In this document: positions 18,429 to 54,002 of the stretch, piece after piece
Layout of the letters: each line of letters starts with the position of its first letter
Numbering within the stretch: the first letter of the stretch is position 1
DNA from: Strigamia acuminata
Lineage: Eukaryota; Arthropoda; Chilopoda; Geophilomorpha; Linotaeniidae
Direction: 5' to 3'
DNA: 64,000 nt
NCBI GenBank assembly: GCA_949358305.1
Contig: OX442315.1
Coordinates: 21,664,427-21,728,426, forward strand
Translations under genes and position numbers: made by a program
The notes under the pieces: generated by a model
Told to the model about the DNA's origin: nothing
Database searches by the model: none
What the model saw: the letters and a program-made list of their open reading frames with translations, nothing else

Positions 18429-21068
18429 TTATGATTCGTCCATGGTCTGAGTTCGCTCAGGCGTCAACGGGCGCATCATATCCGTGGTGTCGTCCCTCGG
18501 GTTGGACCGCTCGTTAACCGTACACAGGTCGCGACCTGCGTTTGGTCCGGAGACCATTCCAGGGTTGACATGAAGCCAAACCTGGATGATTCTTGCCGAG
18601 TTCGCTCGGTTGAAGCATCCTAGCGCCGCGAACTCGATTGGATCCTCTGGCGCTAATCGTGCTCTCAGGAGTCGATCATGGAGCACCGATGGTGGGCTTA
18701 ACACCCGGATGTGGTCCTCGAGCCACATAAACACCTGCCTCGACAACTTGTGGTTGTTGCTAAGCAGTGTTCGCGTATCCGGCGTCAAATAGAAGTGCGG
18801 ATACAGGCGCATTAGGGTCTTGAAAGCCGACTCTTTTTTCAGCGGCTTGACCTTCGTCTCCGGCTTGGCTGGCGGCGGCGGCGGACGTGAGTCTTCCGTC
18901 GTGGCATCGTCAAACTGGCACTGCGGGCCCAAGAAAACCAACGCGGGTGCGGAGGTTGACGAGGGTGTGACGCCTCGTCCCGGTGCTCGACCCATACCGG
19001 GGAGCTGACGGGTTTCGACTACCCGTTGAACTCCGGCTGGAGTTTGAGAACTTCCGGCGTTCTCTGGCCAAAATGAACATCCAGCGCCCTCTTGGGCCGA
19101 CTGGAAAACAGCCAGTGACGCAGCTGCTGTGGCGCTTGTAACTGGAAGCGGTGGTCTTCCGGTCATTCGCGCCGTGGCCTTCGCAAAGGACCACTCGGTT
19201 CGCAACCGAACGGCGGCCTCTTCTTCGGTCTCACCGTTTGCTACGACTTGCTTTATTAGCTCGGCTAAGATCGTAGGCGGGTCGAGCCTGAGGTGGTACC
19301 ACAGCTCGACTTTCTTCTCCGACAGGCCCATCGGCGCGGTCCAAAGGTACGTTATGGCCGCTAACGCCTGTCCTGGCGAAGGAAGAACACCAGGGTACAA
19401 CACCCTAGTCATCCCCGGAATTAGCTGACGCTGAAAATCCATCAGACGGGGATCATCAATGGTATTGATGTCGGAGACTTCTAGCCTTTCAGCTAGTCTC
19501 TGCCAGTCCTTCTGCGACTCGGCGATCTGGGCGCTTTGGTATGCGTCCAGCTTCTGGAGCACTTCCTGCTGTGCTCTAATGGGTTGCTGCTCGTAGCAGG
19601 TCCATTGTGGGCCGAATGACTCACTAAAAAATGGCCGGAGTTGCAGGTTGCTAACTCCAGCCGGCAAGCGGGAAACATATCCTTGTTCAGGCAAGCGGCT
19701 AGCATGTCCAGGTACTGGCACGCTACAGTCGGGAGAAATATCGCCGACAACACGTCTCATGGCGTATGGAGTAGCCGAGTTGTCCACTTTGAACGTGGAG
19801 GCGGTTCGGCTACTTCGGGCGGACTTAATTGTGGAGTCCGATTCAAAACTCAGTGAAGACGACGAGCCAAACGACTCTGGTGTCCGTCCTCGTCGCGACT
19901 GCGGGCGTGATGGCTGCGCGTCAGTCGAATATGGGCGTGATCGCCTCTGACGTTCCTCTCGATCGCGGCTTGATTCGCGGAACATCGGTCGGACTGGAAC
20001 CGGCGGAGGGAGTTGCCCCACCCTCAAATCCTCGTCTTGCGGCGGAGGATTGATGGCCGCTGGGGCCGGAATTTCATCTTCTTGATAAAAAGGGAGAGCG
20101 CAACGCGCTTGCTCCTCTGCCTCGTGTTCTCGAGCCAGTTGTCGATTTTCGTCGACGCGAAGCTGCACCGCGGCAGCTCGGAGTGCTTTGGACGGGAAAA
20201 ATCCCGGAAAATCGTTAAAACACCCGGCGAGCGCCAACTGGTGGAGCTCGGTTTGTGTGACGGGAAGTTGTGGGTTCCCGTCACGAACGGATTTGCGATA
20301 CCGTTTAACGACTTCGCGTTGTGTCGTCTTGAGGTTCTTCCTCAATTGGGTTAGAGCACCGTAATTAATTCCGGTACTCTTTAGCGCTCTTCTGCGCTCG
20401 TGACGCTCTCGTGGCGTCACTGGCCACTGGTTGTGCAGCAACTCTGCTGCAAGCGGTCCTGGGGGGCTCTCGTCGAGCGTCCACTCGATTTCGTCGACAC
20501 CGTCCACGTGAAGGCGCTCGATGAATCTTCCTTTTGCACCAAATCCTTGCAGCGCTGATCTGCTGAAGTCGTGGCGCAACTTCCACCAGGTATTGTTTGC
20601 CGTCTTCAGTCTTCTGATTTTTTCGGGCAATGCCGCTCGAAAAATCAGCGGGTGCTGAGTCGGCACGTGATCGGGAAGCGCGAATGGCGTTTCTCGATCC
20701 CTCTCGATCTATATTCGAAGAAAAATAAATAAATTAGTTTATTTAAAAATAAACAAATAATTTCTTATTTGAAATATTTTTTAAGCTTAGCGCTTGTGGC
20801 TGTGAGTCACTAAGGGATGTTGGTTGTCATGGCAACTCCCTTCGCACATGCTTGAAGCACGTGACTTTTATAGCCGCCATTTTTATTTTTTAGCGGCTTG
20901 TGTTTGAAGTCAGGAAAAGTGAAATTACTCAATTTTTCTGACTTAAACACTTGGTAAAAATTTATTCTAATAATTTACCCGTTGTTGAAGCGTCAATTGA
21001 ACGTCTTCATTTGCCCCTTCCATGGGCATTTCTCCGTCCGCCTGGAGTTGGATCGCTTCCTCGTCCAT
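18429..21068 (-). CDS. ORF3 of element A: conserved non-envelope protein downstream of pol, spliced
   Basis: Proposed two coding exons: 21068-20979 (ATG, 30 residues) and 20708-18429. They are joined in phase 0 across a 270-nt GT-AG intron, giving 789 residues. Without splicing, an ORF of 745 codons opens at a GTG (20666). A leader exon ending at 21173 may join the first exon through a 66-nt intron (21172-21107, GTAAGT donor, CTTTCAAG acceptor). Features in 745-residue numbering: basic helical N-terminus; proline/arginine/serine-rich linker 200-300; conserved blocks LYPG 423, LWTAPMG 441, GETEEEA..RLR.EW 478, LYP...TRTLL 621-635, WLHVNPG.VSGP 697-708. The same blocks with the same spacing occur in ORF3 of element B. 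I see no signal peptide, membrane segment, zinc knuckle or enzyme motif. The function is unknown; see findings for the Gag-like hypothesis. Confidence 0.75.
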
Positions 21069-21410
21069 TCTCTTTCGTTTTCCGGTAATTTCGGAAATTC
21101 TTTCGTCTTGAAAGAGAAATAATACATAAATCTTATGTTTTATCAAATTTTTCATACAGAAAAATTACTTACGATCAGGTTGTCGAACTATTCGGGTCGT
21201 AACGTAGGCGATGCGATGCATACACTCTCGAAACTTTTGAAAAAGTGACTAAGTTCGTTGATTGCAAACACGAACTTGGATTAGAGACGCTTTGTGACGT
21301 CACTAATTATAACGTATGATTAACGTTGTCATTCGAGTGGGTACTACGAATGACGTCACGAGATTGCTTTCTCGGATCTTTTGGGTAAACCCAAAAGGTG
21401 AAAGACAACA
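21069..21410 (-). promoter_or_regulatory. Spacer between pol and ORF3 with two CRE-like sites and a leader donor
   Basis: Contains two perfect palindromic TGACGTCA sites (21295-21302 and 21351-21358), 56 bp apart, and a GTAAGT donor at 21172 on the minus strand. It could be an internal promoter with a non-coding leader exon for ORF3, or simply part of a spliced subgenomic transcript. The sites are seen directly; the role is inferred. Confidence 0.4.
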
Positions 21411-24400
21411 CTATGTCTTGGCTCGCGGAACGCGAGATCTCAAGTTGTACTTTGACTTTCGCGAAGTACAATCCAACTTGTTTAGATTGTCATCAGCATC
21501 GTCTCCAATGTCAGATGAGTTATATACTTCATTGTTTGAAATTTTCTCTTTTTCTAAAAACATTTCCTTTTCTAGATTTTCATCAAGAGAAACATTTTCA
21601 AGTCGCTGGTTTATTTCATCGACTTCGTTATTTTTGAGTTTCGATTTTTTACTCGATTCCGTGTTTTCGACAGGAATTTTGGATAATTTAGCATCATCCA
21701 AGGTATTAACAATATTCTTTGTTTTTTGACCCACTTCCTCCCCTTCCAGCCAAATTTCTTGGTTGAAAACGGGAAAGTACGGCATTAATTCAGTGCCGTG
21801 AACAGCTGGATAAATTTTATTATCACTCAGCCGTCGAAGTTGAAAGGCGCCTCCTTGTAACCTTTTGATAATTACATAAGGCCCATTCCTTTTCGGTGAA
21901 ATGCCTGCTGCTATTCCTTTAGCGGCATTTGAGAGAATATGAGACTCTCGCCAGACTAAATCATTTTGTCTGAAGTTGTCGAATTTCTTATCTGATTTTT
22001 CAGCTTCGACACGGCGTCTCAAATCTAAGACGTGAGACATCATATGCTGATACGTCTCTGCAATTATTGTTTCTAATTTCTGAACATATAAATGCGGATT
22101 TTTTGGATCAATGACTAAAATTCCTTCCGGAATTCTTGGATCCCAAGGAATTCTTAATTCTCGGAAAAAATTTAAGAAAGCAGGAGAATAATCTCTGCCT
22201 CTTGTTACAGTTGTTCTCAAACTGAATGCAAATTCGCGTAGATACTCATCCCATTGGTCATGAATATCTAAATAAATCGAAACTAAATATTTAATATCTC
22301 GATTGGTTCTCTCCACAGGATTGCTTTGTGGATGATAAATCGATGTCGGTGTTCGCGACATGTCGAATTTTTTGCAAAATTCTTTATAGACCTGTGATCG
22401 AAATTGTGGTCCATTATCACTTATGATTTGTCTCGGAAATCCGAAAGTCATTGATAAGTGATAAATTGTGTTGGCAACTTTTATTGCCGTTGGATTACAC
22501 ATTGGAAATAATTCGGGCCAATGTGTAGCGACATCTACGATGACGCAAATGTGGGTATTGTTTTTTCTGGTTCTTGGTTTGGGACCAGACAAATCCACAC
22601 TGAGGCAGTCAAATGGTCCAAATGGTCCAATTTGAGCGCCTTCAATTTCGGTCTTTGATCTCGGCTTACATGCCTGACATCCTTGACAATGTTGAATAAA
22701 ACGTGTAATATCACGTTTCATTCCTTTCCAGGTATAAACTCTTCGAGTTCGGTACATTGTCCTCGCAATGCCTGGGTGGCCGGACAGTGGATGTCCGTGC
22801 ATCAACCAAATGATTTTATAAATCAATTTTCTTGGCACAACAACTTTAAGTGCCCTACCATCCTCTCCCAATTCATCGGTAGAGGTAGGATGATAATGGA
22901 GTAACATATCTTCTTCAATGAGATAAGTACTCGCGTGTCTTTCAAAATTTCTTCTTTGAAGACGAGTTACTATGTAACTTGGGTATTGCTTGTTTAACAA
23001 GTAATTGCGAATATGTTGGCAAAATTTGTCTGCTTTTTGCGCCGCAATAATGTCATCTCTCGTTGGAGGATCACATTCCAATTGTTTGGCAATTTTAGCT
23101 GCAAATGCTTTAATTAAAACATTTGTTGTTGGCAGCTCGAATTTTTTAGCCATCATAGCCCTTAATTCGACGTCAGGGGTTCCTGACGGATCATGCATGT
23201 TAATACAAAAATTGATTAATGCTTGATCGTCTTCATTAACTATTATCGACTTGGGTAATTCATTCAATTTTCCCATTTGCCAACTTCGGCAAGGAGATGG
23301 ACAATATGATAATAAATCATCATTATCGCCATCGTCTTCTGGTTCGTCAGGTGCGCTGACAGGTGCACGTGACAATGCGTCTGCTATTACATTTAGCGGA
23401 CCTTTGACGTATTGTATTTCGAACGAATACGCCATCAGCTCCATTTGCCAACGAGCTAATCTGCCCGACGGGTCAGATAACGACATCAACCACTTAAGTG
23501 CTTGGTGATCCGTTTGTACAGTGAATGTAGTGTACTCTAAGTATGGGCGAAATTTGCGTAATCCCCATACTACTGCGAGACATTCTAATTCTGTCACAGT
23601 ATAATTCTTTTCAGCGGGTTGCAAGCTTCTGCTTGCATACACGCATGGCATTTCGACTTCTTGGCCATCCACATTTTTCTTTTGTGTAAGGGCTGCACCC
23701 AACCCTTGTTTACTGGCGTCAGTATGAACAATAAATGGCATGTACAAGTCAGGCATCTTCATTGTTTCAGCATTCGTAAGCAGGTCTTTTATTGCGTCGA
23801 ATGCTGCTTGATGATGCAGTTCCCAATCGAACTCCGCATCTTTCTTCAAGAGTGGCCTTAGTGGTTCTGCCACTGTGGCCAAATTCTTGATTAGGCGGTG
23901 AAAGAAATTCACCATGCCTAGAAATCTTTGTAATTCCTTAAGATTGGTAGGAGCAGGAAATTGCGTAATTGCAGCGACTTTTTTAGGGTCTACTGCAAGT
24001 CCTTCTACTCCTACTTTGTAGCCTAGAAAAATTAATTCCTTTCTACAGAGATGCGTCTTGCCAGGGTGCGCATGTAAATTAGCTTCTGCCAATTTTTTAA
24101 ACACTATATCTAAATGTTTAATGTGTTCTTCGAACGATTTGGATACAACAATTATGTCATCCAAATATGCCCATGCAAATTTTCTGTAAACGTCACCCAA
24201 AACTTTTTCCATTAATTCTTGGAAGGTAGTTGGTGCGTTTACTAATCCGAAAGGCATGACTAAAAACATTAGTCTTCCCATTGGGCTCCAGAAGGCAGTT
24301 TTTTCTCTGTCTTCAGGTCGCAATTCTATCTGCCAATATCCCTTGGTCAGATCTATAGTACTGACCCATTCGAATTCTCCGATTTCTCGCAGAATTTCCT

Positions 24401-25637
24401 CAATTGTTGGCATTTGAGGTGGGTTGTACTTAGTATGTGTATTGATGGGGCGAAAATCAATGCACAAGCGTGGGTCGTTTCCTGGTCGCATGACTAGGAC
24501 TGGCCTCATTCCGTAATCGCCTTCAGCTTTGACGACTACGCCTTTGTCAATCATGTCTTGACAAAGTTGTCTGATTATTTCCCTTTTTTGAGGGTTTATG
24601 CTCTTAAAGGGGACACGGATGGGTTTCTCCGTGTCAAGCTCAATTTTGTGCTTAACCAGGTGTGTTTTACCTGGATCTTTAGAAATAATCCTTTTATGTT
24701 TGGATAACATCTTTTCTAGTAATTTGGATTGCTCCAAATTTAAGTTAGCTTCTTTGACTAACTTTTGGATGAAATTCTCTTCATCAATTTTGCTTTGAGT
24801 TACACTTGCAGCGTAAGCTTTTGCAAAGGTCACAAATGAGGAATCGGGTTCCTCTATTTTCTCCAAATAACGATCCAGCAACGCTTGTGGAATGTAGGGT
24901 AAATCTGCATCCACAGGTTGCGTGAAATTCCAAGACATCGTCTGTGGATTAGGTTGGATTTTTAATTTATTCATAAAATCGCAACCCAATAGTACCATTG
25001 GATACCTATTTGGTATTACGATGAACGGATGACGTAACGTGCCATGTGTCCATCGAAATGAAAGATGGATGGTTCCATCTGGAGTGACTTCTTCACTTGC
25101 TGTCGTGACTCTGACACCAGGTCCGATAGGTCGTAGATATTTTTCTAGACCTAATTGATTAATAACTGAAGTGGCTAGGAAGCTTTTATTTGCTCCTGAG
25201 TCCAACATTCCGGTTATTACACCTTTTAACGTTTCTAACTTTAACGTCGGAAGGTCTTGGCTGTTTGGTATTCCAGCCACTTTGCACTCAAACTTGCGCA
25301 ATTTATGATGAATTGTAATTGGAGGCTCCAAAGGCAATTCATCTAATAACTCATTGGTATCAAGAGTTGTAGCTGCAAATAACTTAATGCACTCCTCAAT
25401 TCCAGGTGTCTCTGGAACTGAGCTTGGTCTATCGTCTTTAACTTCGACTTTATCTTGAATATTGGAAGTGTCTTCTTCAGTCGGGGTTTCGCCGACAATC
25501 TCCTTTTTTACATCAAGAGATCCATTTTCTTTTAGTTCAGTTTGACGAATTAATTCATCAATAGCTTCTCCAACATCTTCCATTATCTTCAGATTTTCAT
25601 TCTCTGATTCCGATTTCGGAGGTGACGCAGCGTCCAC
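21411..25637 (-). CDS. pol: Pol polyprotein of element A (protease, RT, RNase H, integrase)
   Basis: 1408 residues from the first GTG, with the frame open upstream to the slippery site at 25664. The product is therefore a Gag-Pol fusion made by -1 frameshifting. Domains: aspartic protease with LDSGAN at 145-150 and a later LLGCDF; reverse transcriptase with D429 in STIDLTKG and YLDDI at 491-495; RNase H with TDAS at 639-642; integrase zinc finger H947, H954, C984, C987; catalytic D1015, D1074, E1109, with 34 residues between the last two; then a GPY/F-type module (NGPYVI) and a charged C-terminal tail. All key residues are intact. The order protease-RT-RNase H-integrase is that of Ty3/gypsy elements. 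The protein copies element RNA to DNA and integrates it. Confidence 0.95.
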   Translation of the reverse strand: MDAASPPKSESENENLKIMEDVGEAIDELIRQTELKENGSLDVKKEIVGETPTEEDTSNIQDKVEVKDDRPSSVPETPGIEECIKLFAATTLDTNELLDELPLEPPITIHHKLRKFECKVAGIPNSQDLPTLKLETLKGVITGMLDSGANKSFLATSVINQLGLEKYLRPIGPGVRVTTASEEVTPDGTIHLSFRWTHGTLRHPFIVIPNRYPMVLLGCDFMNKLKIQPNPQTMSWNFTQPVDADLPYIPQALLDRYLEKIEEPDSSFVTFAKAYAASVTQSKIDEENFIQKLVKEANLNLEQSKLLEKMLSKHKRIISKDPGKTHLVKHKIELDTEKPIRVPFKSINPQKREIIRQLCQDMIDKGVVVKAEGDYGMRPVLVMRPGNDPRLCIDFRPINTHTKYNPPQMPTIEEILREIGEFEWVSTIDLTKGYWQIELRPEDREKTAFWSPMGRLMFLVMPFGLVNAPTTFQELMEKVLGDVYRKFAWAYLDDIIVVSKSFEEHIKHLDIVFKKLAEANLHAHPGKTHLCRKELIFLGYKVGVEGLAVDPKKVAAITQFPAPTNLKELQRFLGMVNFFHRLIKNLATVAEPLRPLLKKDAEFDWELHHQAAFDAIKDLLTNAETMKMPDLYMPFIVHTDASKQGLGAALTQKKNVDGQEVEMPCVYASRSLQPAEKNYTVTELECLAVVWGLRKFRPYLEYTTFTVQTDHQALKWLMSLSDPSGRLARWQMELMAYSFEIQYVKGPLNVIADALSRAPVSAPDEPEDDGDNDDLLSYCPSPCRSWQMGKLNELPKSIIVNEDDQALINFCINMHDPSGTPDVELRAMMAKKFELPTTNVLIKAFAAKIAKQLECDPPTRDDIIAAQKADKFCQHIRNYLLNKQYPSYIVTRLQRRNFERHASTYLIEEDMLLHYHPTSTDELGEDGRALKVVVPRKLIYKIIWLMHGHPLSGHPGIARTMYRTRRVYTWKGMKRDITRFIQHCQGCQACKPRSKTEIEGAQIGPFGPFDCLSVDLSGPKPRTRKNNTHICVIVDVATHWPELFPMCNPTAIKVANTIYHLSMTFGFPRQIISDNGPQFRSQVYKEFCKKFDMSRTPTSIYHPQSNPVERTNRDIKYLVSIYLDIHDQWDEYLREFAFSLRTTVTRGRDYSPAFLNFFRELRIPWDPRIPEGILVIDPKNPHLYVQKLETIIAETYQHMMSHVLDLRRRVEAEKSDKKFDNFRQNDLVWRESHILSNAAKGIAAGISPKRNGPYVIIKRLQGGAFQLRRLSDNKIYPAVHGTELMPYFPVFNQEIWLEGEEVGQKTKNIVNTLDDAKLSKIPVENTESSKKSKLKNNEVDEINQRLENVSLDENLEKEMFLEKEKISNNEVYNSSDIGDDADDNLNKLDCTSRKSKYNLRSRVPRAKT

Positions 25638-25657
25638 TAGACCTGATGGATCTGCGT

Positions 25658-28600
25658 CTACAAGTTTTTTCGAAACATGTCAGTTATGATCTTGACTGCT
25701 TTTTCAAACTCAGCTGTTGACACTGGTTTGTCCTTTTTAGAGGAAGGGCAGTCTTTTTGCCAATGCCCTAATTTTTTGCATAAATTGCATGGATCAGTGG
25801 CAGGCGATTTCTTTTTCGTTGCTGCTGGCGAGGCAGAACGAGAACGAGCGTCAGACCGGCGCTCTGGCGACACCGCGGGTGATTTTGAATTCCTTTCGGT
25901 ATTCACCTTTGATGCGTCAAATGAAACATTTTTTGGTTTCATTTTTGGCTTCCATTTGCCTGCAACGGGGTTATTTTTTGCTAACAGCGCCGCTGCTTTG
26001 GCTAATAAAGCCAACGTCTCATCTCCTGCTTCCTCCTCCTCTTCAGCTTCTTCAGCTTCAGACGACGGAGTTTCAGCTCCAGTTATATTTGCATGTAACT
26101 TAGGAACTGAATGAGGATTTTTGACGTCCTTTTTGGAAGATTCTTTTTTCGAACTCTTCTCATCCACTTCGTCTAGAAAGTCTTCGTAACTAGGTGGCTG
26201 CAACAATTTCAAACCATTAAAGGTTTCATTGTTTTGCTCAGCGAGTCTTTTCTCTCGCTTTAAGTACGCTGACCTTTCGGCTTCTGTAAGATAAGCTTTG
26301 TACTTTTCGTCAATGCGCAATTGATTGACTTCCATGAATTCGTTTAACTCGGAGAATTTCCCCGGGTCGGGAGCGTCCGACATCATCAGAATATTTTTAC
26401 TATATTCTGTGAGGCCAGCTCTAAACTGATCATCTGCTGTTGCATCAGTAACAGCATGTGGCATTCTGCCAAGCAGATTCTCTGCTCTTAGCATGTACGA
26501 ATGTAAGCTTTCGCCTTTTCGTTGCTTAAGACATCTCCAAAGCGTCTTGATGTCTTCGCTCGATTCACCAAATTTAAACATAAATTGTTTAACGAAGTCA
26601 TCCCACTTCGTGAAGTCTTTCCTGCGAAACCACTCCTTGACACCGCCAACTAGTATTCTTGGTACTAGATGGGCCAATGCACCTTCACAGCTAAAACTGT
26701 GAACTTTGCCTAGTTCAAATATTTCCAGCAAGAGGTTTGACCCTGCTTGCCAATTTCCATTATAGGCGTGTGGGATAACTCGATCCCATCTAATGAACTT
26801 TTCATCTGTTGTTTGATGAGTCCATTTATCAGAAGTAAATTCACTTATTTTTTGCAAAATAATTTTATCCCTTCTGCTTTTTCGCTGTTGTTGAGCATTT
26901 TGCCTCAACAACTGGTCAATCTCATCTTTCGTGTAGAAATCGGGTCTTTGAGTTCTACTACGTGTTCTGTGACGAGATCGCCCTCTCACACTGGGGCGTG
27001 AGGAATCTGTATCAGACGCAGATTCATGATTCGGATTTGGCGGCGGATCAGGGTCCGGAGGATCGTCGCCATCTGGCGGACGACGGTCTCCATTTGGTGG
27101 TCCCCTTCCATTTCGATTGCCATTCGAATTGTGGTCACGTGAGTGGCCACCTCCATGTCCATCTGAACTGTCTCCACCTGGTGGGTCACCACCTGGTGGA
27201 TTTCCACGGTATCTCGGTCCATCACGGATGTCGTTATGACAATCTCGTTTTGGTGAGCCTTCTCGCGGATTATCGTGTGACCGTCCACGATCGTGTGGTT
27301 TCTCACGTTCTTTATTTTTTCTCTCTAGCAATCCGATTAATCGGTCACTATTGCTAAAGAATCGATCCGAATTTTGCGGAACGTTTGGGGAATGATATTC
27401 GGTCGGGTCTGGTTGTCGCTTTCGCTTTTTGCGACTGTGATGACTATCACGGCTTCCACGACTACTGCGTGCGTCATCACTGTCAGTCCAACTTGATTGT
27501 CGACTGACTTTTGGTTTAGCTGATGTTAAATCAATCAACTCAGGTGATTTGGAAGCACCTTTTTGCAAAACTGGGGCTGGCTTTGCAAAATTATCTTCGC
27601 CACAAACGTCTTGTACTTTTTGTACGACTACTGCAAAGTTTTCTTGTACCGTCAATAGATCTGCGCGAAGAATCTCGTTTTCACGAGCTTGCGCAGCTAA
27701 GTCGGCACGTAATAACTGCTCTGCAGTACTTTGACTTTTGGCGGCTTGACCAGCATCAATTACTGACTGCTGTCGAGCGAGAAATACTTCATTTTCTCGT
27801 TGTGCTAATCTCTTAGCTCTTGCTGCTTGTTCTGCAGCATAATTCTCGTAATTTCGAGAAGTGGAGGGAATTTCTTCCCTCGCTCGAACTGGGGCGGTTA
27901 GTTCGGCAGTCATTAAATTTGTGTTGGCTTCTCGCAAATTTGCGTTGGCCAATCTCAAATTTTCATTAGCAATTTCTAAATCTTTTTGTGCTTGATTTAG
28001 TTGCTCGAGCCTTTGTTGTTGCTCTTCGTCAGTAATTAGCCAGGAAGCTTTTTCCTGCTCTAATTGTAACAACTTAACATGGTCATTCGCACGTTGTTGT
28101 TTTAGTTCGGCATTTTGCTGATGCATTTCTGCACGCATTCGCTCGAACTCTGCTTGCAAGCTTGTTCTGACGATTTCAACGTCTTTTTGGCTTTGTTTGC
28201 GAACCATAGCTTTGTGGATTTGTTCCACAGTCATTTCGCTAGTGACTTTTACTCCCTCGAGCCTAGCTTGCTCACGGAGTGCGTCCATCATGGTAACACG
28301 CACGGGAGAATGAGAAACTTCCATATTGGAGTTCTCAGAATCTTGTTGTGCTGCACCTTGAACCGGTGATGAATTCAGCGAGTGCTCCGCACTTGATGAT
28401 TGAATTCGTAAATTCAAATCATCGTTTTGCGACTTGGAACGGCCACTTCCAGTTGGATTGTTTAAGTCCAACTGGCCGCTTGGCGGGGATGGCTGTTGTC
28501 GCTCCAACGCTTGCGTGAATTCATTCACGATTAACTGTGCCGAGTTACAGTTAGCTGTTTGATCCATAGTTTCAAACAGTTCTTGTGACTCAGTCACTTC

Positions 28601-28681
28601 TTGATCCACGACTGGTAGATCGATGGCCACTCGTCTCTTCGCTGGTCTGCCTCTCGGTCTCTTTTCGCCTGGAGTCGCCAT
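25658..28681 (-). CDS. gag: Gag of element A
   Basis: 1007 residues from ATG at 28681, about 95 nt after the primer site. Order: N-terminal acidic region; glutamine- and glutamate-rich coiled coil about 150-350; a long linker rich in RS, DS, glycine and proline about 380-590; a capsid-like helical region about 600-770 with W...FVKQF and KGESLHSYMLRAENL; an acidic stretch; and a CCHC zinc knuckle CNLCKKLGHWQKDC at 965-978. It forms the particle and binds RNA. It is more than twice the length of many Ty3/gypsy Gags because of the coiled coil and the disordered linker. It ends in TAG a few codons after the slippery heptamer. Confidence 0.92.
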   Translation of the reverse strand: MATPGEKRPRGRPAKRRVAIDLPVVDQEVTESQELFETMDQTANCNSAQLIVNEFTQALERQQPSPPSGQLDLNNPTGSGRSKSQNDDLNLRIQSSSAEHSLNSSPVQGAAQQDSENSNMEVSHSPVRVTMMDALREQARLEGVKVTSEMTVEQIHKAMVRKQSQKDVEIVRTSLQAEFERMRAEMHQQNAELKQQRANDHVKLLQLEQEKASWLITDEEQQQRLEQLNQAQKDLEIANENLRLANANLREANTNLMTAELTAPVRAREEIPSTSRNYENYAAEQAARAKRLAQRENEVFLARQQSVIDAGQAAKSQSTAEQLLRADLAAQARENEILRADLLTVQENFAVVVQKVQDVCGEDNFAKPAPVLQKGASKSPELIDLTSAKPKVSRQSSWTDSDDARSSRGSRDSHHSRKKRKRQPDPTEYHSPNVPQNSDRFFSNSDRLIGLLERKNKEREKPHDRGRSHDNPREGSPKRDCHNDIRDGPRYRGNPPGGDPPGGDSSDGHGGGHSRDHNSNGNRNGRGPPNGDRRPPDGDDPPDPDPPPNPNHESASDTDSSRPSVRGRSRHRTRSRTQRPDFYTKDEIDQLLRQNAQQQRKSRRDKIILQKISEFTSDKWTHQTTDEKFIRWDRVIPHAYNGNWQAGSNLLLEIFELGKVHSFSCEGALAHLVPRILVGGVKEWFRRKDFTKWDDFVKQFMFKFGESSEDIKTLWRCLKQRKGESLHSYMLRAENLLGRMPHAVTDATADDQFRAGLTEYSKNILMMSDAPDPGKFSELNEFMEVNQLRIDEKYKAYLTEAERSAYLKREKRLAEQNNETFNGLKLLQPPSYEDFLDEVDEKSSKKESSKKDVKNPHSVPKLHANITGAETPSSEAEEAEEEEEAGDETLALLAKAAALLAKNNPVAGKWKPKMKPKNVSFDASKVNTERNSKSPAVSPERRSDARSRSASPAATKKKSPATDPCNLCKKLGHWQKDCPSSKKDKPVSTAEFEKAVKIITDMFRKNL
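25664..25670 (-). promoter_or_regulatory. -1 ribosomal frameshift site A AAA AAC (element A)
   Basis: In the gag frame the heptamer is the third base of CGA plus AAA AAC, the canonical X XXY YYZ arrangement. It is followed by TTG and the gag stop TAG. After a -1 slip, reading continues CTT GTA GAC without stops into pol. A downstream RNA structure could not be assessed by eye. Confidence 0.8.
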
Positions 28682-28775
28682 TTTTCAAATGAAGACAAAG
28701 AAAGGATAGAGAAGAAAGATAAGCAAGATAAAAATGGCGGGTAAATTTTAAACTATCAAAATTTATACAATGACT

Positions 28776-28793
28776 ATCCCGGACGGGCCCCCA
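28776..28793 (-). other. Primer binding site of element A (tRNA-Pro type)
   Basis: Minus strand TGGGGGCCCGTCCGGGAT, two bases after the 5' LTR. It differs by one base from the well-known proline-tRNA primer site used by murine gammaretroviruses. Confidence 0.8.
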
Positions 28794-28795
28794 CG

Positions 28796-29779
28796 TGCTG
28801 CGATCCGGGTTTTTATCCACTTAATTTCTAATAAATTAAGCAGAAACCGCAGGTGAATGCTTAACAAGACTTATATCGCGGCCGAAACTTGTCTAGGGTT
28901 AAGTTTACGAAAATAGGAATAAAAAGACAGTTTATTATGGTAATAAAAATCACACAATTATTTATTCGGTTTAAATTACAATATATATATTAATAATGAT
29001 TATGAATATCACGATATGCAACAAGTCGCGAGAATAAAATGAGCGGGAAACAATGAAACAAAGGAAGGGCTTGCAACGACTGTTGCAAGCTACAAAGCGT
29101 CAGAAATGGCGCTTAAACAACGAGATGTTGTTGATCGAAGGCAAATGTCTTCGTTCTCGGCAAACTCACGAACGATGGTCGAAGACGATGGTTCTCGTGG
29201 GTTTCTTCTACGGCTCGTGCGACGGCTCGGCGGCGGTGGTTGACGGCTGTAGGCGTCTGGTCCAGGTACGATGGCGATGGTTGCCGTTCGCGCGGCAACG
29301 ATGGCGATGGTTCACTTGGATCAGGAAACTTCTTCTTCTCGATAGCTGGAATTAGCGACGGCTAATTCAAGCTGAATTGCTGGCTTTGTGCTTTGGATGA
29401 CACAAAGATAGCAGATGAAACTGAGTTACAACGGTCCTCTATCAATACGTATTGTCGGAGCAAATATCGCAGTGATGTTGAGGTTGTTGTTGTATTTTTC
29501 AGAGTCCCGATTTGAGCCAAGACGCGAGCCCAGCACGCTTCAATATTGCGCAGAAAACCTGCGCACTTAGCTCAAATGGGTGCAACTAGTGGTTATTACA
29601 CCATATTGCACCATAACGGCTAATAACCGTTTTCACCCCGGACAACCTGGGGTGATATGTGCCTAGAGAGGATTTCTCCCCTCGGTCACATGATCTGACT
29701 TGGCGTGTGCCACAGTCAAATTAATTAGAAGATAATTAATTTAATCTTCTAAGTTGGTGAATATTTTGAGATCACCACA
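28796..29779 (-). repeat. 5' LTR of element A
   Basis: 984 bp, identical to the 3' LTR. It drives transcription toward lower coordinates. I did not locate the promoter within it. Confidence 0.93.
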
Positions 29780-29783
29780 CTTG

Positions 29784-31026: not shown

Positions 31027-31342
31027 GAACTACACTTTACGGGCGAATCGTCACTACCGATCATCCGAATTTTCATTGTTGGGAGCGACAATCACAATTT
31101 TTCCCATACATATCAGGAGTCAATAAGTGCCCAATTCCCATCACATTAATAAAACCAGTTAAGGTGAGGTTTGCGGGGGGTCAAGGGGGGCTAAGAAAAA
31201 AAAGAAAAAAAGTTAGGTGCGGAGCGCTGGCGAAATACCCGTCATTATCATAAGTCATCAAGATGATGGGTATTTCGCCAGCGCTCCCAACAATGAAAAG
31301 TCGGATGATCGGTAGTGACGATTCGCCCGTAAAGTGTAGTTC
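31027..31342. mobile_element. Nested palindromic element
   Basis: Outer arms of 61 bp, 31027-31087 and 31282-31342, are near-perfect reverse complements (GAACTACACTTTACGGGCGA and its complement). Inside lies a second hairpin with 25-bp arms, 31221-31245 and 31263-31287 (GGAGCGCTGGCGAAATACCC), which abuts the right outer arm. There is no coding potential. It may extend outward, because the neighbouring CGCGCGCAAT(T/C)CGAGACCC words near 30820 and 31395 are also shared. Likely a MITE with an internal rearrangement. Confidence 0.65.
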
Positions 31343-31517
31343 TACCGAAATGTGTACAAATGTTTCATGTCTCACTGTCTCGAATTTCGCACTCGCGCGC
31401 AATCCGAGACCCGTGCGCTATTTACAATATTTTTTTTATCCGCATGTAATTAGAAGCCAGCGGGCTATTGGAGGCCCGCGAGCAAATCGAAGATATAATG
31501 CAAGCCATAGTTGATGT

Positions 31518-31672: not shown

Positions 31673-31680
31673 GTTGATGT

Positions 31681-33113: not shown

Positions 33114-33500
33114 CTTCCATTTTCGTTTACTCCCAAAACCGTCAACGCCTTTCGTTTTTGCATTCCTGGTTCCCGTTATTTCACCACATTCATGTTTTTG
33201 CAAATCAACATTCCACTATTTTTAAAAGCTTTTTTAAAGACTTTTATTTAACTTGACTTGCACATGAGTGCTTCAACTTCTGGTTTGTGTAATTTCCCAA
33301 AAAAGAATTTAAAAATTAATTATAAGATTAGAAAGTAGACTTTTCTGATGCAGTTTTTGGTCTACTTTCCAATGAACATGATAAAATTAAAATTAAATGT
33401 TAAATGTTAAAGGCAGACAATTCTGATTTACGGCGAAATGTCAGCAAACCGGAGCGCCACCTGGCTTCCCATCTGGCTTCCCAGCAGGCTCCTCAGCAGG
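33114..33500. other. Intergenic, no gene seen
   Basis: AT-rich sequence between the MITE and the minisatellite; nothing recognised. Confidence 0.5.
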
Positions 33501-33774
33501 AAAATTACAATTGCAATTGGGAAAATTACAATTGCAAAAATTACAATTGCAATTGGGAAAATTACAATTGCAAAAATTACAATTGCAATTGGGAAAATTA
33601 CAATTGCAAAAATTACAATTGCAATTGGGAAAATTACAATTGCAAAAATTACAATTGCAATTGGGAAAATTACAATTGCAATTGGGAAAATTACAATTGC
33701 AATTGGGAAAATTACAATTGCAATTGGGAAAATTACAATTGCAATTGGGAAAATTACAATTGCAATTGGGAAAA
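33501..33774. repeat. Minisatellite of 21-bp and 15-bp units with CAATTG palindromes
   Basis: The 21-bp unit AAAATTACAATTGCAATTGGG alternates with a 15-bp shortened unit in a 36-bp composite, four times, and then repeats alone about six times to 33774. Because 36 and 21 are multiples of three, open frames run through it on both strands; these are artefacts. Each unit contains one or two CAATTG palindromes. Confidence 0.93.
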
Positions 33775-33840
33775 TCGCGATATTTCGGCTGTATTTGAGC
33801 TCTCGAAGGCGGCCGATTGTGTTTAAATGTTTCGCCATAC

Positions 33841-46100: not shown

Positions 46101-49100
46101 GGCGCTTATTTAATTTGTCAAGATGTCACGTCCATCACAATCATGACTCAAACATGACGATGTCGCACCGCTTCCATCTCTATCAAACATATTTTTTCAA
46201 CTACCCCTCACCCACATCACCTTCCTTTCCTTCCCGAACCGTTCGCGCCAGTGTTAACATCTCTTTTTTTTTTCTGTGCGAGGAGGAAAACTTTCCATTT
46301 TGGAATTTATATTTTTGTAACTGTCTCGATATTTAGCTCGTGCCACTTGTTTTCTATTTAACCTTTTGTTTAACATCGTTTTGCTTGCATGGTGGTAGCT
46401 CTCATTTCCTCAATTCTCTCCCATACCAATTCTTAGACACTCAAAACTAACGGTCAGCAGCCCACGTCTCACTTCCGGAATCAAGACCCCAAGTTTCCGT
46501 TACTGATCCCTCCGATTGCTGGCCAAGATTACGAACAGTCTTCCACTTGCTTCCTCATTCAGGAAACAATAGCCTTTAATCGCACTACTTTTACATTAAA
46601 GAGAACTGTCATCTCAATTAAGTGTACCGTACATTCACATTAATAACGCCAACAAATGGTGTTTTTAGGATATCTGCGGTCAGAAGATGATTATAGCCTA
46701 AATCCCTTCAAAATTGCACCAATTACGAAGTATATATTTTTTTTTAAATATAGAAAATCCACTTCTCACAATGTTCAAAAATATATTTTATAATATAGAC
46801 TAAAATGTACAGAATTTTGCAGAATTGGTAACTATATTATTTGTGCATTTCGTAATGCGTTTGAAAAAAATGCATTGACAAATAAAAATATTTGGAAGGC
46901 ATTTGCAAACCAATAGCATGAAAAAATGTATTCCAATAAATACATTTCAAAGTACATTGCAATATATTGTAATGTATTTGAATTCCGGCAAGCAAAAGAT
47001 AATTAAGGTCCTTTTGAAGATGCAGATTCGACCGCATCTATTGTTGTTTAAGAATCTTTTGTCCCTTTTTTCGGACACTACAAAGTACAAACTGTGCCTC
47101 AAGGTAGTTGTGTAGTCAGTAAATGGCTTTAGGGTGACATGTTGAAAGTCCATTACGTATGTAACAATGAAATGATTTTCCTTTAGTGGTGCAATTATAG
47201 GAGACAATTCACTTGTCATCCGACAGGTCCATTCCTCTTTGTTTGCACTTAACCCCGGTCCAGCGCCTTCACAAAGGGCCTTCGAGAAGAAGAAAAAAAG
47301 TCGGGAGGTACCCTTTTGCTCATTTGGTTCAGTGTTTGCTTTTGTTGGCACATGTGCAGTGGCAGTGTAAGAGGACGACGGCCATCTTTCAATTTGTCAG
47401 GTGCTAGGACGTGTGTGAATTTATTAGCTCCAAGCTGGTCCATGATCCCGGGATGCCTCTTGCGGCGTTGACCTCGTAATGACCAAAGACATTCGTCTTC
47501 ATTGGCTTGACGCGACCCGACCAAGGGGTTCGCTTTACCGATCACTAATCCTCCCCCAAAGCAAAATCAATAGACCGCCCGTGGGTATCACTCACAAACT
47601 AATGCCAGTCGATGGAAGTCCTCGGCTTCCAAATAATCCTTTATACTCATAAACTTTCAAACGTGAAATAATGTTGTGGAGGGACTAGTTAACTTTTTAA
47701 CGCGACGTTTAAAATTTGCTGATTAAAGATGCGAGTTAACTCTATTAATTAAATTTTTATTTTTTTAATGAAAAAAATTAAGATTGTGAAAAAATAAAAA
47801 ATTACACGACCATTAAACATTGTGCTGTCATTTTAAATCGTCTTTTTTGCTTCTTCTTGTCTCCCGACACAATGAACTGAGAGATGTAAAGGGAAAAAAA
47901 TTGAATTTATCGCAGCTAGTAGCAAGCAGCAGCACAAGCGGCTTGCCTTATTCCATTAATTAAGTTTCTCCGTTTGCTGCATGGGGTGCTGTACTACATG
48001 ACGGATGGCATGGAATGGGCTAATTACGCGTCCAATTCAGACGCAAAAGCCTTGGACAAAGCGCCTTACGCCGAGCCCCAGCGACCCCGTAGCTGCTTGT
48101 AATTGTTTCTTTGTAAAGTGGGCTCGCGAATAAATTTGCGGTTAGGGCTCCGTCATTTGTTTCCAAGTTCCGGTGTAATCCCCTCTCTTACGAGCAACTC
48201 GGATGCGGCACTCGTTTACTACAATATGGCCTGTTTTAATGTAATTAACGCCTCGTTTTCATTTTGGAGAAAATCAACAGACATTAAATTAAAGAGGTGC
48301 TTTGGTTTGGATGCAAAAATCTTTTTTTTTTCTTTTTTTTTTTTTCTTTAAATTAATTACGGTATTGCATCATGACTTGGGCCTTGTAAAGAGAAATTGT
48401 TGTTCTCATTCTTCATCCTAATTAGGTCATCAGTCGTTGAAAAAAAATTTAATTAACTACTTGGGGGATAAAATGGCGGATAAGTTTCATCACTTTGATG
48501 AATTCAGCAACACGAAATATATCAAATGAAACTAGTAAAGAAGTCTAATACTAACCTTATAGGAAAAAAGTGCTAATTGAGGAGAATGAGACCTCAACTA
48601 GCCGCGGAATCCCCAGTGCCTCCAACGAAGGGTGATTTGTCTTCATTTCAGCTTGAAGGGAGTTCTGTGTCAGAATTTGCGTCCACCAAAAAGCTCGGTC
48701 CCACAACTGAATCCCTCCTCCTGGTGGAGAGTGCAAAGTGAATCAATCATAGACAAAGGGGTCTTGATGGACAACCCCTCTGTATATACACCAGCATTTA
48801 TCAGTAAAAGACGCGTGAGTGCAGCCATGAATGCAATGTTTTTTACTTTTACCAACGAATACAATGAAAAATAGGTTTAGAATTTTTACACACATTGTTT
48901 TATATGTAAAATGTTGATAATAACAGGTTACGAGTACATTTCATGCTGCTAAATATTGTCTTATTCATTATTTAGAGGGAAAAAAATAATTCAGATTATA
49001 TTAAAACGCATATTGTGCTGACTGTTTACTTTTTAGTGGCCAATAAAATGAGTGTATAAAAGAAAGTTGGGGAAAAAAATAGCATTTTGCATTTCATATA

Positions 49101-49891
49101 TCAGGCAGTTTCCACTTTTTTATTTTTATTATTTTCCGAATAGAAAGTGTCTTATTCACGTTCGGTATTACTTTTTTTTATTCTGATATATTCACAAACT
49201 GAGTAAAAAAAAAATAAGTCTCTCGCCCCTTTGTGAGGAGCTCAAGATGCACGTTGACGCTCATATCTTCACGTTTTCCTTCTTGATGGCGGCGATTGGT
49301 CAGGAGGATGACGCCACGCCTGTAAGAATATTATATTTTCCCCTTTGCTATCACTGGTATATAAAATCTCATCAGTATTTGGTCACGCAACGTGAAATAA
49401 ATATGCACGAGCTTTACAATGACACCTATAGCCACAATGCGGTTCAATGAAAAAGTGAGAAAAGGGGGAAATGGAGAAAGAGAAGGAAAGGGGTCATCAG
49501 AGACCACCAACAGACGCGGTATAAGATTGGAGCGTTCGAATCGGAATTTCGTATTAAGGTCGTATCAAACCGACTTGGTTTTTCCATTTCAACAGCCGAG
49601 GAAATTTTTTTTTATTTTTTTTTATTTATTTATTTTTTATAACGGTGCAGAGGCTTCCCAAAAAAGAATTGAGATCAAATGGCGGAAGAAAAGCCATCGA
49701 TTACAATTTTTTTTTCTTTTAAATTGCAATTTTTTTTTATTCAGTTAGCCCGAAAAATAAGAAACAAATCAGTTTAGAGATAATTGTTATTGAAACTATA
49801 ATTTAAAATATTGCTCCAAATAAAAACTCATTAAGAAGCAATGTAGCGAAGAATACTTTTTTGTTTTAAGGGGTAGCTTTGTTTTCCTATG
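40117..49891. other. Gene-poor region, no gene recognised
   Basis: 9.8 kb without a supported coding sequence or RNA gene. The background is AT-rich with a 26-base poly-T (44178-44203). Islands of higher complexity and GC stand out at about 40410-40560, 41400-41770, 44850-45250, 45580-46130, 47200-47560 and 47960-48260. A TATA box and initiator pair lies at 41720-41753. These islands could be enhancers or promoters of a flanking gene, or exons of a non-coding RNA. ORFs in them overlap in several frames without a consistent coding signal. Confidence 0.4.
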
Positions 49892-50910
49892 TGTAATGAG
49901 CTCAAATTACTGTGAAGAATATTAACAATAAAACTAAACTCATTGATGCCGTGCCAGGACTTATACAAATACTTCTCAAAATAACTTAATATTAACTCAA
50001 ATGATAGGAGAAATAATGACTCAATTATTTCTCAATTAACAGACGATTTATTCAAACTTAGAATAAACACTAAATCAAATACAAGATATTAAAATACGGA
50101 TATTATTTTGTGATAAAATGATAAATTAGATGACTGAAGAAATAATTTACTAAGAGAAATATAATTAAAAGCAAAGGAAAACGATAAAGAATCCAGTCGA
50201 TTCGACGACTCCACTTCTCGGGAACGCCGAACGCTTGGATTCGCTTCACTCGACGCTCGGCTCGGCCTCGACGTTTCTTCAACACGGACTCAATTCCGTT
50301 CCAACTACTTCCTCGTGACTCGTTCGGGCTCAATCCCGCTCTCCTCGTCCTCTCCAGGTCGCAACGTCGTCGTCGCGGCGTCGTTGCGGCTGATTCCGCC
50401 TAACAATCTCTCACACTCGCGCTCACTTCGCTTCGTCGCGAGTGAGAAATCTCAGTCCAACAATGGCTGTTGGCCGAGAATAGAAATCCCTCCAAACAAT
50501 ACTTGTTTGGCAAGATGAAACTCCCACTGTCACTAACTGAAGTAACAGCAAGAAATATCTCACAAATTGGTCTGGCAATTCGCAAGACTGAGTCCAAATA
50601 CTCTGACAATCATTCACTAAATCCGCTTGTAGAATGGTGTTTTCTCAGGAAGATTTTGGTGACTGGTTGCTCTCAAAGTAAGTTTCAAACTGAGGAGTTT
50701 TTCTGCTCCTCACAGGAAGTGTTTCCTGCTCCGGGAGGTTGCGGGCTGGTTTCCTTGGCGACCACCCACAATTCCTCCCACCCTGCCTAACTCCCTTTAT
50801 CTAGACAGGAAATCATAAAAAATATAAAATAAAATAAAACAATCTCCAATTTAATATTTTATTTCGGGCTCATTCCCGACACTTCATTAGTGACCACTAG
50901 GGTCACTACA
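49892..50910 (-). repeat. 3' LTR of element B
   Basis: 1019 bp. On the minus strand it begins TGTAGTGACC and ends CTCATTACA. The inner border is set by the purine tract, the outer border by comparison with 63737. A GC-richer stretch lies at about 50190-50420. Confidence 0.88.
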
Positions 50911-50924
50911 CCTCCCCTCTTTTT
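50911..50924 (-). other. Polypurine tract of element B
   Basis: Minus strand AAAAGAGGGGAGG directly before the LTR's TGTAG. Confidence 0.75.
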
Positions 50925-50954
50925 AGGAAGGTTCTCCGATTCTTCCTTCACTTC

Positions 50955-53900
50955 TCACTTCTCGATTCGGAAAACTGACTCCGGAGTTGGAGCTTCGCTT
51001 TCGGAAACCGAAAATTTTGGCAGATGCTGGGTTGGTCCCGAGGTGGCGCCATTGTTGACATGGAGCCAGACTTCTTTGATGAACTTGGTCCTCGGGAATA
51101 CTCGGTCATAATCGATGTCATATTTTTCGCGGGATCCGGTGGGTGGTCTCCGCACCGCAACTAGTCGTTGATGCTGAATTATGCGTTTAGGCTCTCTGAC
51201 AGCATTCTCGAGCCACTTCAATGCCTCATGGCATAACGTCGCATTATAGATAAGTAGAGTTCGCGCGTATTCGGGGAATCTCAGACCTGGATACAACTGT
51301 TTTATTTTCCTGTAGTCTTGGTTTGGATTCTTTTTCGTCCCTTTAGTGGCTGCCGAACTTCTGCCAGACGCTGTTTTTTGCGAGCTTCCACTAGCTCTAT
51401 TTAAGGGCTCATTCCCTTCGACATCAAACATCTCAGTATCGGTGGTCAATTTCAACTCAACATCGGATTCTGGAGCTATTGCTTTTTTGGTTGGCTGGTG
51501 GCTCGGCGTGGCAGTCATAAAGACTGTGGGCACCGCCCCTCCCGCTGCTGGTGGGTCAGCCACTTGTTGCGCACACGTCCCAAAATTCCGTTGCAGTTGC
51601 AAACTCTGTCTTCTCAGAATCCATTCGCCCCGCAGTCTCAGCATGCACTGCCCCGATGTTTCTCCCGTTTTAAAAACTTCTCGTTCCAATTGGGCCCGGA
51701 TGACAGGTGGGTCTCCCAATACTGTTTTCCAGCTGTCGAGCAACTCGGGTGGGATGCCCATTGCTGACGTCCATAGGAAACTTGCGGCGATCAACGATGC
51801 TTCGACCGCTTGGAAAACTCCTGGAAACAAAAGTCTTATTAATGCCACTGACATTTGCACTTCGAACCAAGCTAGCCATTCTTTGGTTCTCAATTCGGTG
51901 GGTTGGGCGATGAAGGCTTGAGCGCATCTCCGTCGTTCATTTAGTGACTCTGCTAATTGGGCTTGCTGATACTCGTCCATTGTCGGGGTCAGAAGTCCTT
52001 GGTTACATAACGGAAATTTCAGATACATCGTCCACAGCTGTCGATAGTATTTATCAAAATCTTCGGCTAATTTGACTGATGGGTCTATCGTGTACATCAC
52101 GGTGGCTACTGATGGAATTGGCAATGATAAGTCCGTTTGGGGAATTGGTTCCGTAATTGGTTGCAAGTGAGGGTGAGGCACTCCCAAGGCGGCACTCGGC
52201 GTAGCTTTTGGTTGTACCTTCCTTGGATCTCGCATCCTCGGGCGCAGTATTCGCGATGGTCCTTTTTTCCGCGCTGGTTCCCTTGCCCTTTTCTCCCATG
52301 CCTGGGCTAAGGCCTCGTCAAGAGTCGGCAACTCTCGGCAGCTGGAAATCTCCGGTGATGACACTCGCGGCGTTGGCGTTGGTGGGCACGTGGTTGGAGT
52401 CCAGGTAATAGGAGTGTGCGCACTCCGTGGTGGTGTCTTTGGCGCCTGGTCCGATCTTGGAGGGGTGGCCGGCGGTGGTTTCTGCACTTCCTGCTGTCTT
52501 GGCGGGGTAGTAGGTGGTGTTCGTGGCCCTCTTTTGCTAGTTTCACCTCCCTGTTGTTTTTCAGTGTCGTGTATGACTGTCGCTGTTGGCTCCCGTTCCT
52601 CCAAAATACGAACCGTCGTTTCAGCCAATTGCTGCTCTTTCTCCGAATCAGGCGATGGCGAACGTTGACACTCGTCCATTACCACGTATTGATCTAGCTC
52701 CATCTCGTGTGCCGTCAAATACTCGTCCGACGAACTTCTGCGAATTTGCACCTGTAGTGTCTCATCTTTACTTGCCGAAATTGTCACTTTTCTTGCTGGG
52801 CGCATTTCTGAATAGCGGTGTGACGACCGTGGGCGCTTCTTTGTCCGCTCAATTCGATTTCCTTCGGCTGACGGACGCTTCTCTGTTGCTCGGTGGTGTC
52901 TAGGTACGTATTCTTGCTCTGTCGTTTCGTGTCGCCTCGAATTCCTTTTCGGACTTATTTCCGAGCTTCGTTGATGCCTCTTTACTTCCCTCTCTGAATC
53001 TTTGTCTGTTCGACTTAATCTTTTCTCCATTTGCGTTTGACGAGAGAAATATTGCCGTCTTGGACTTTTACTCCTTCGTCGGGGACTTTCTTTTCTATCT
53101 CGACTTTGACATCTTCTCGGACTTATTTCCGCACTTCTGTACTCTTTTCGCCTAGATCTGAATTCCCTGGTATAATATTTTGGGCTGATTCTTCGAGGAG
53201 GAGTTGTCCTTTTGTGTCTCTCACTCCTGGAGTAACGAAGGGCTCCTCGTGATCTGGCTTCTCTTCCTCGCCGTTTGGTTTCCTCTTCTTCCGTTCTGAC
53301 ACATTTCAGAAACTCCACTTCCTCGTGCAATTCCTTCACCGTTTCTTCTGCCGCCTGCTCTAATGCTGCCTCCCACTCGTCCTGCTCCTGCCGCTGTTGT
53401 TTGGCGTACACGAGTGGTCCAAAATCCTCGGCTTGCGGCTCACCTTCTAAATTGAGCGGTGTGATGTTTTGGCCAATGAGTCCCGTCATATGGAGTTGGT
53501 GCATCTTGTACTGACTCTTTATGAAGTATGGCGGCTCTTTATCTAACTCCGGGGAAGGCAATAAGGCCTGAGCTTCGAGGTAAGCTGTCTTCTCCTCCAT
53601 ATATTTAGCCGCTACTTCTGGTGCTCCGGCTTTCAGCTTTGCCATCACCTCTTCCACGAATTTAAATTTGTTTGTCGCAGGATTCTGGTATATTTTGAGA
53701 TCGGCTGCTTCCTCCTCTTCTATTGGATATTCGTCCCCTATCATCTGGTTCCAAATTGGGCCATGTGTGTCCTCTGTAATTGGGATCTGTCTCAAAACTT
53801 CGTGGAAACATGTTTTGAATCCTTTGAATAATCGTTTCGTCGTTCCCCAAAATCTTTGAATTGCTGTTGTGAAGGCTTTGCGTGCTTGAAATGCTGTATA

Positions 53901-54002
53901 ACCTCTCTCAACGAATTCTCTCTTGTATCTATATGGAATTCTCCCTCGATGGATATTCCTTGGCAACCTAGCCGCTCTCGAAATTCTTCCCCACGACGCC
54001 AT
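50955..54002 (-). CDS. ORF3 of element B: conserved non-envelope protein downstream of pol
   Basis: 1015 residues from ATG at 54002, ending about 45 nt before the LTR. A good acceptor (TTTTATACAG at 54025-54015) lies 12 nt upstream of the ATG, so translation from a spliced RNA is likely. Regions: basic, arginine-rich N-terminus (1-70); helical acidic part (90-240); RS-rich domain about 240-400 with many SPRR and RRRS words and a KKRPR nuclear-import-like run; proline-rich TPP repeats 490-550; conserved C-terminal half. Blocks shared with ORF3 of element A: LFPG 725, LWTSAMG 743, GETSGQC.LRLRGEW 780, LYPG...ARTLL 903-917, VWLHVNNGATSGP 978-990. There is no signal peptide, membrane span or enzyme motif. 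RS domains occur in splicing and nuclear RNA proteins. The function is unknown. Confidence 0.85.
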   Translation of the reverse strand: MASWGRISRAARLPRNIHRGRIPYRYKREFVERGYTAFQARKAFTTAIQRFWGTTKRLFKGFKTCFHEVLRQIPITEDTHGPIWNQMIGDEYPIEEEEAADLKIYQNPATNKFKFVEEVMAKLKAGAPEVAAKYMEEKTAYLEAQALLPSPELDKEPPYFIKSQYKMHQLHMTGLIGQNITPLNLEGEPQAEDFGPLVYAKQQRQEQDEWEAALEQAAEETVKELHEEVEFLKCVRTEEEETKRRGREARSRGALRYSRSERHKRTTPPRRISPKYYTREFRSRRKEYRSAEISPRRCQSRDRKESPRRRSKSPRRQYFSRQTQMEKRLSRTDKDSEREVKRHQRSSEISPKRNSRRHETTEQEYVPRHHRATEKRPSAEGNRIERTKKRPRSSHRYSEMRPARKVTISASKDETLQVQIRRSSSDEYLTAHEMELDQYVVMDECQRSPSPDSEKEQQLAETTVRILEEREPTATVIHDTEKQQGGETSKRGPRTPPTTPPRQQEVQKPPPATPPRSDQAPKTPPRSAHTPITWTPTTCPPTPTPRVSSPEISSCRELPTLDEALAQAWEKRAREPARKKGPSRILRPRMRDPRKVQPKATPSAALGVPHPHLQPITEPIPQTDLSLPIPSVATVMYTIDPSVKLAEDFDKYYRQLWTMYLKFPLCNQGLLTPTMDEYQQAQLAESLNERRRCAQAFIAQPTELRTKEWLAWFEVQMSVALIRLLFPGVFQAVEASLIAASFLWTSAMGIPPELLDSWKTVLGDPPVIRAQLEREVFKTGETSGQCMLRLRGEWILRRQSLQLQRNFGTCAQQVADPPAAGGAVPTVFMTATPSHQPTKKAIAPESDVELKLTTDTEMFDVEGNEPLNRASGSSQKTASGRSSAATKGTKKNPNQDYRKIKQLYPGLRFPEYARTLLIYNATLCHEALKWLENAVREPKRIIQHQRLVAVRRPPTGSREKYDIDYDRVFPRTKFIKEVWLHVNNGATSGPTQHLPKFSVSESEAPTPESVFRIEK

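Follow-up and report, generated by a model that had tools for sequence, protein, structure and literature searches.

An extra open reading frame (ORF) after pol in a long terminal repeat (LTR) retrotransposon is usually presumed, from its position, to be envelope-like, as stated in the available part of a report on bdelloid rotifer elements (PMC5408684). According to the accessible portion of its description, the third ORF of Cer1, a Ty3/gypsy element of C. elegans, encodes CERV, a spliced, fast-evolving, nuclear protein that is unlike envelopes and on which the export of unspliced genomic RNA depends (PMC10309623). Here we describe a 64,000-nucleotide (nt) stretch of the genome of the centipede Strigamia acuminata (OX442315.1, positions 21,664,427 to 21,728,426; hereafter the window), which is part of contig C3 of the genome searched (237.5 Mb, 157 contigs). 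The window holds two LTR retrotransposons, A and B, both on the minus strand, each with a sense ORF (ORF3) downstream of pol on the same strand as gag and pol. We conclude that ORF3 is a genuine accessory gene belonging to one Ty3/gypsy-type lineage and that the ancestor shared by A and B already had it.

As far as the consulted text on CERV goes (PMC10309623), the two genes share a position between pol and the 3′ LTR, a lack of resemblance to envelopes, spliced upstream exons (predicted for ORF3) and fast evolution. The Cer1 primer-binding site is TGGGGGCCG, a reported tRNA-Pro site, and both A and B carry TGGGGGCCCG, resembling a tRNA-Pro site, just inside the 5′ LTR. In contrast, CERV has 517 amino acids (aa) whereas the predicted spliced ORF3 products have ~789 (A) and ~1036 (B); exons 1-3 of CERV share the gag frame whereas the predicted exon 1 of ORF3 lies after pol; and CERV has an M domain with a Cys-rich loop, while the ORF3 core has no invariant cysteine among seven sequences from four families. 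Because of the cysteine and the predicted position of exon 1 outside gag, we do not place ORF3 in CERV, the two having been compared by description only.

Other described systems, each represented by part of its source, are more distant. Bdelloid LTR elements likewise have a non-envelope ORF3 after pol, but theirs encode a GDSL esterase/lipase, a DEDDy exonuclease or envelope-like proteins (PMC5408684), and no Pfam family, these domains included, was matched by the ORF3 of A or B. Retand plant elements with TRP28 likewise have a further conserved protein of unknown function, encoded between pol and the 3′ LTR; their ORFs are antisense, whereas ORF3 of A and B is sense (PMC11963269). The sORF2 of the insect MDG1 group is likewise an accessory protein of an envelope-less LTR element, but it is short and transmembrane, whereas ORF3 is long and without a hydrophobic segment (PMC11952523). 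Non-envelope ORF3s are thus already known (PMC5408684, PMC11963269, PMC10309623), but this gene family seems new: no description of it was found in the literature searched on such elements, to the extent that those texts were available.

Homology, spread and constraint of ORF3

A preliminary description of the window reported a long ORF after pol in both elements, and both are present on the minus strand. In B the long frame spans 50955-54002 (1015 aa, beginning with ATG). For A the description gave 18429-21068, of which 18429-20666 is indeed a long frame (745 aa, mechanical GTG start, no ATG near the start), while the upper bound proved to be the ATG of a separate stretch across a predicted intron. 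Alignment of the two proteins scored 110 bits (E 7e-29), with significant matches in both core 1 (82 bits, 32% identity) and core 2 (49 bits, 31% identity); 100 shuffles of the A core against the B core reached a maximum of 19.2 bits. The conserved core lies at 18522-19649 in A and 51003-52085 in B. Alignment of the N-terminal parts was not significant (19.6 bits, E 0.19), and the middle part is variable and arginine-rich. Basic patterns resembling nuclear localization signals were found once in A and five times in B.

Searches of the genome with the B core recovered further families. At the DNA level (40 of 54 candidates scored), there were 26 full-length B matches at 90-100% identity and partial matches at 67-76%. 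The partial matches led to family C (19 full-length matches at 91-100%, plus one at 78% and one at 72%). The name family D was given to five partial matches at 69-71% in the C search; the D piece used in the core alignment (L056) comes from a copy with one stop elsewhere. The protein search, in which 113 of 1241 candidates were scored so that counts are lower bounds, and in which one gene can give two rows, yielded at least 142 rows, 10 with stops. At least 26 of them were B rows at 94-100% identity, none with a stop. Other rows fell at ~50% (C and D), at 40-42% (mostly 837-847-codon frames), at 38-39% (mostly 816) and at 33% (754-826-codon frames), with further rows having frames of 759 or of 859-861 codons, and others. 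Grouped by ourselves on identity and frame length, with no clustering, these make at least eight ORF3 classes besides A; family A was not among the matches listed. Core homology suggests that ORF3 occurs in further families of this genome, and C, D and the rest presumably lie in LTR elements. Some rows stand ~14 kb (G000:C1:35701870-35731140) or 19.4 kb (G000:C9:4411299-4451260) apart, as if elements or segments had been tandemly duplicated.

The copies show that ORF3 is under purifying selection, with a constraint about equal to that on pol. When A ORF3 was used in a protein search (60 of 1446 candidates scored, window copy included), 59 copies had no stop and one had a single stop. ORF3 contained no stop at any of 28 A loci; 20 of these had no insertion or deletion, six had three inserted bases, L026 had one inserted and seven deleted, and L027 one of each. 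The pattern that the preliminary description had named as refuting a function, stops in ORF3 beside an open pol, was not seen. Variants were counted in 46 stretches with at least 70% of ORF3, amounting to 24 distinct sequences, the latter being the unit because places repeat among the 46 (L001-L008 overlap later loci, and the window copy is included). There were 68 synonymous, 34 non-synonymous and no stop variants, a non-synonymous to synonymous ratio (pN/pS) of 0.163, with much of the variation coming from L026, and L013 and L027 left out (<70%). The corresponding pol sample (17 stretches, 14 distinct) gave 76 synonymous, 47 non-synonymous and no stop variants (pN/pS 0.167). Six pairs among four copies of family C (L052-L055) had ratios of non-synonymous to synonymous substitution (dN/dS) of 0.038-0.097; synonymous differences numbered 53.5-71.7 per 281-287 sites. 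We gave no weight to the B versus C value of 0.047 because synonymous sites are near saturation. The earlier claim of selection is borne out by these ratios and by the open copies.

The absence of envelope features also held, as judged by hydropathy only: neither ORF3 has a 19-residue window above 1.6 that would indicate a membrane segment, nor a hydrophobic N terminus indicating a signal peptide. In agreement with the earlier statement that no named family has this signature, a Pfam scan at E values up to 1 matched no family, and nothing significant was found in PDB sequences, IMG/VR or two protein-database searches; the IMG/VR blanks mean little because a scan with pol likewise matched nothing. 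AlphaFold2 predicted core 1 as one all-helical domain, with a predicted local distance difference test (pLDDT) score mostly of 70-89, and gave 55-64 for the helices of core 2 and 30-45 around WLHV; with two sequences only, the mean pLDDT was 36.1. Of the folded two-part domain proposed earlier, the first block is thus predicted to fold, whereas the second received these low scores. Foldseek with the ORF3 model returned no match at E 0.001 or better among PDB or viral models; a Bcl-2-like fold was among those considered.

The elements carrying ORF3

Both elements are LTR retrotransposons of Ty3/gypsy type, and young, since their LTRs are without differences (986/986 compared positions identical in A, 1020/1020 in B). 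LTR ends, placed by eye, are TG...CA in both, and 4-bp target duplications, also by eye, are CAAG in A (element orientation; CTTG/CAAG) and TATG in B (plus strand). In Pfam, reverse transcriptase (RT), RNase H and integrase exceeded their cut-offs in both pols, while protease, in first place, matched below its cut-off. The Ty3/gypsy assignment follows from this domain order and from LTRs with short target duplications. The 5′ LTR of B starts at 63737 and extends beyond the window into L009. The parts are as follows.

17393..18376, minus strand: element A 3′ LTR, identical to 28796-29779; ends and CTTG/CAAG duplication by eye
21411..25637, minus strand: element A pol (protease-like, RT, RNase H, integrase), from ORF list and Pfam
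25658..28681, minus strand: element A gag, 1007 aa, CCHC knuckle, from ORF list; Pfam PF00098 below its cut-off
28796..29779, minus strand: element A 5′ LTR, from LTR comparison
49892..50910, minus strand: element B 3′ LTR, from LTR comparison; ends and TATG duplication by eye
54747..59918, minus strand: element B pol, from ORF list and Pfam
59924..63613, minus strand: element B gag, 1229 aa, CCHC knuckle, from ORF list and Pfam

Both pol frames start a few bases past the gag stop (25637-25658; 59918-59924), at GTG, with no ATG. A and B are sister families within a single lineage, to judge from the 58% identity of their pols over 1193 columns. Their gag capsid regions are 35% identical over 227 columns, and no significant DNA similarity was found between their LTRs or pol-ORF3 gaps. 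This kinship bears on the conserved blocks of ORF3, whose spacings in A and B are exactly as first described: 18 residues from L(Y/F)PG to LWT, 37 from LWT to GET and 76 from LYP to WLHV. The spacings of 18 and 37 hold in families C and D too, D having VWT for LWT. Because A and B are homologous sister families, however, exact spacing follows from homology within one lineage and cannot serve, as had been proposed, as independent evidence of selection.

Predicted exons, candidate promoter sites and neighbouring features

In element A, stops separate a 30-codon ATG stretch from the long ORF, so that ORF3 of A consists of two predicted exons and not of one ORF. The stretch (21068-20979) ends at a GTAAAT donor, and an acceptor lies 270 nt on, in frame with the long ORF. 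The same layout was found in B, with 17 codons followed by 440 nt.

18429..20708, minus strand: A ORF3 predicted exon 2, containing the core; supported by homology and pN/pS
20709..20978, minus strand: predicted intron of A ORF3, 270 nt, with donor GT and acceptor AG; from sequence only
20979..21068, minus strand: first predicted coding exon of A ORF3, 30 codons long; identical in 17 of 18 covering loci, open in the diverged L026
21295..21358, no strand assigned: two TGACGTCA sites, cAMP response element (CRE)-like, in the A pol-ORF3 gap; motif noticed before it was tested
50955..54014, minus strand: B ORF3 predicted exon 2, containing the core; supported by homology and open copies
54015..54454, minus strand: B ORF3 predicted 440-nt intron, layout as in A
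54455..54505, minus strand: first predicted coding exon of B ORF3, 17 codons long, layout as in A
54699..54732, no strand assigned: two GACGTC sites (54699, 54727) in the B pol-ORF3 gap, from a 6-mer test

The A pol-ORF3 gap was matched at 26 loci, 18 of which cover exon 1 while the other eight end short of it. The sole diverged copy of exon 1, in L026, has 22 mismatches and three inserted and three deleted bases, and it remains open and keeps the donor. The mRNA for ORF3 is probably spliced and its first coding exon short, a case that we consider good but not conclusive. Upstream of exon 1 in A, a GTAAGT donor (~21172) and an acceptor (~21107) were seen by eye, and these are also kept in L026. 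That locus (G000:C1:7329996-7337396) is a mosaic A copy in which exon 1 and the sequence before it are diverged and the sequence downstream is near-identical, and its ORF3 intron has ~1 kb of inserted DNA that resembles, by eye, a long inverted repeat. The equal length of the pol-ORF3 gaps of A and B, 744 nt, is coincidental because the predicted exon and intron sizes differ between the two.

The TGACGTCA motif occurs twice in the 64 kb, both times inside the A gap, and both sites are kept in L026, the second with altered flanks. GACGTC occurs nine times in the window, four of them within the two gaps, and was the most enriched of 191 strand-merged 6-mers common to both (uncorrected p 3.4e-5); 2 of 5000 simulated gap pairs reached four. 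The CRE-like sites are suggestive of a possible internal promoter for ORF3.

Elsewhere in the window, host exons were found at 530-1345 (plus strand), 8011-12227 (plus) and 13475-13777 (minus), which we take to belong to a focadhesin-like gene, a hephaestin-like multicopper oxidase and an adipokinetic-hormone-like prepropeptide (QINFSPGWGQGKRS), respectively; the last points to an arthropod. At 33404-33826 there is a short tandem array of 15-bp and 21-bp units. On contig C157, COX1 is open under the invertebrate mitochondrial code.

Possible roles of ORF3

A regulatory or accessory role fits ORF3 because it is probably spliced, lies after pol, has no membrane segment and is constrained like pol. 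Tentatively, and at somewhat less than even chances, we read ORF3 as a non-envelope accessory gene whose mRNA is spliced and might start at an internal promoter that includes the CRE-like sites, and whose product, in the manner of CERV in Cer1, controls unspliced RNA. The element would face the same export problem as Cer1 should the ORF3 intron prove real, because its genomic RNA contains the intron. The ORF3 protein would be nuclear and RNA-associated, and would let the unspliced, intron-bearing genomic RNA leave the nucleus to serve as gag-pol mRNA and as packaged genome. The helical core might act as an assembly or partner-binding module and the arginine-rich middle as the RNA-contacting part.

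Several observations weigh against this reading. The proposed control of RNA rests on analogy with CERV, and the ORF3 core, having no invariant cysteine, has no CERV-like Cys loop. The 17 unchanged copies of exon 1 say little because their gaps are 99.6-100% identical anyway. The GACGTC enrichment is post hoc and comes to ~0.07 when corrected over ~2080 6-mers. ORF3 was also considered as an SR protein, a reading we rejected: its RS/SR count was reached by 194 of 1000 shuffles in A, which is not enriched, and by 36 of 1000 in B, a weak enrichment.

Tas, the foamy virus regulator of transcription, is made from an internal promoter, and ORF3 could be a Tas-like protein with the LTR or its own promoter as target. 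The CRE-like sites in both pol-ORF3 gaps and the arginine-rich middle part would suit such a regulator, but family searches found no DNA-binding domain in ORF3 and the promoter motif was picked after being seen, and we regard this as rather unlikely. We give still less credit to a part for ORF3 in building the particle, as a structural or assembly protein that might be distantly related to gag, even though core 1 is modelled as all-helical and divergence is similarly fast in the ORF3 core and in the gag capsid region (32% versus 35% identity). Profile comparison of ORF3 with gag by hhalign gave a probability of 0.2-0.3% (two sequences per side), no support for ORF3 as a gag paralogue, and capsid was not among the fold-search matches listed, an absence that excludes no family. 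That ORF3 counters a host response, such as cell death or small-RNA silencing, appears improbable. Its position after pol could also point to a cell-to-cell transmission factor replacing the envelope, and envelope-less transfer via a short membrane protein is reported, in the part of the source available, for insect elements (PMC11952523). ORF3 of A and B, however, has no hydrophobic segment and is long, unlike the short transmembrane sORF2, and we think this role very improbable. With the same reserve as above, control of unspliced RNA is preferred to transcriptional control, to a structural role and to counter-defence.

ORF3 is a counter-case to the envelope presumption, being demonstrably selected, without envelope features, probably spliced and accompanied by many open relatives in one genome. 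A broader picture, to which we give a rather low probability, is that of an envelope-less lineage with a programme like that of complex retroviruses. An internal promoter of CRE type and a transcript of several exons would yield a dedicated regulator from an undescribed helical family; this protein would control what becomes of unspliced genomic RNA, and it would have been maintained and become diverse in many element families of one host genome. The ORF3 families would form a natural set for asking whether Rev/Tas/CERV-type genes arose independently in invertebrate elements.
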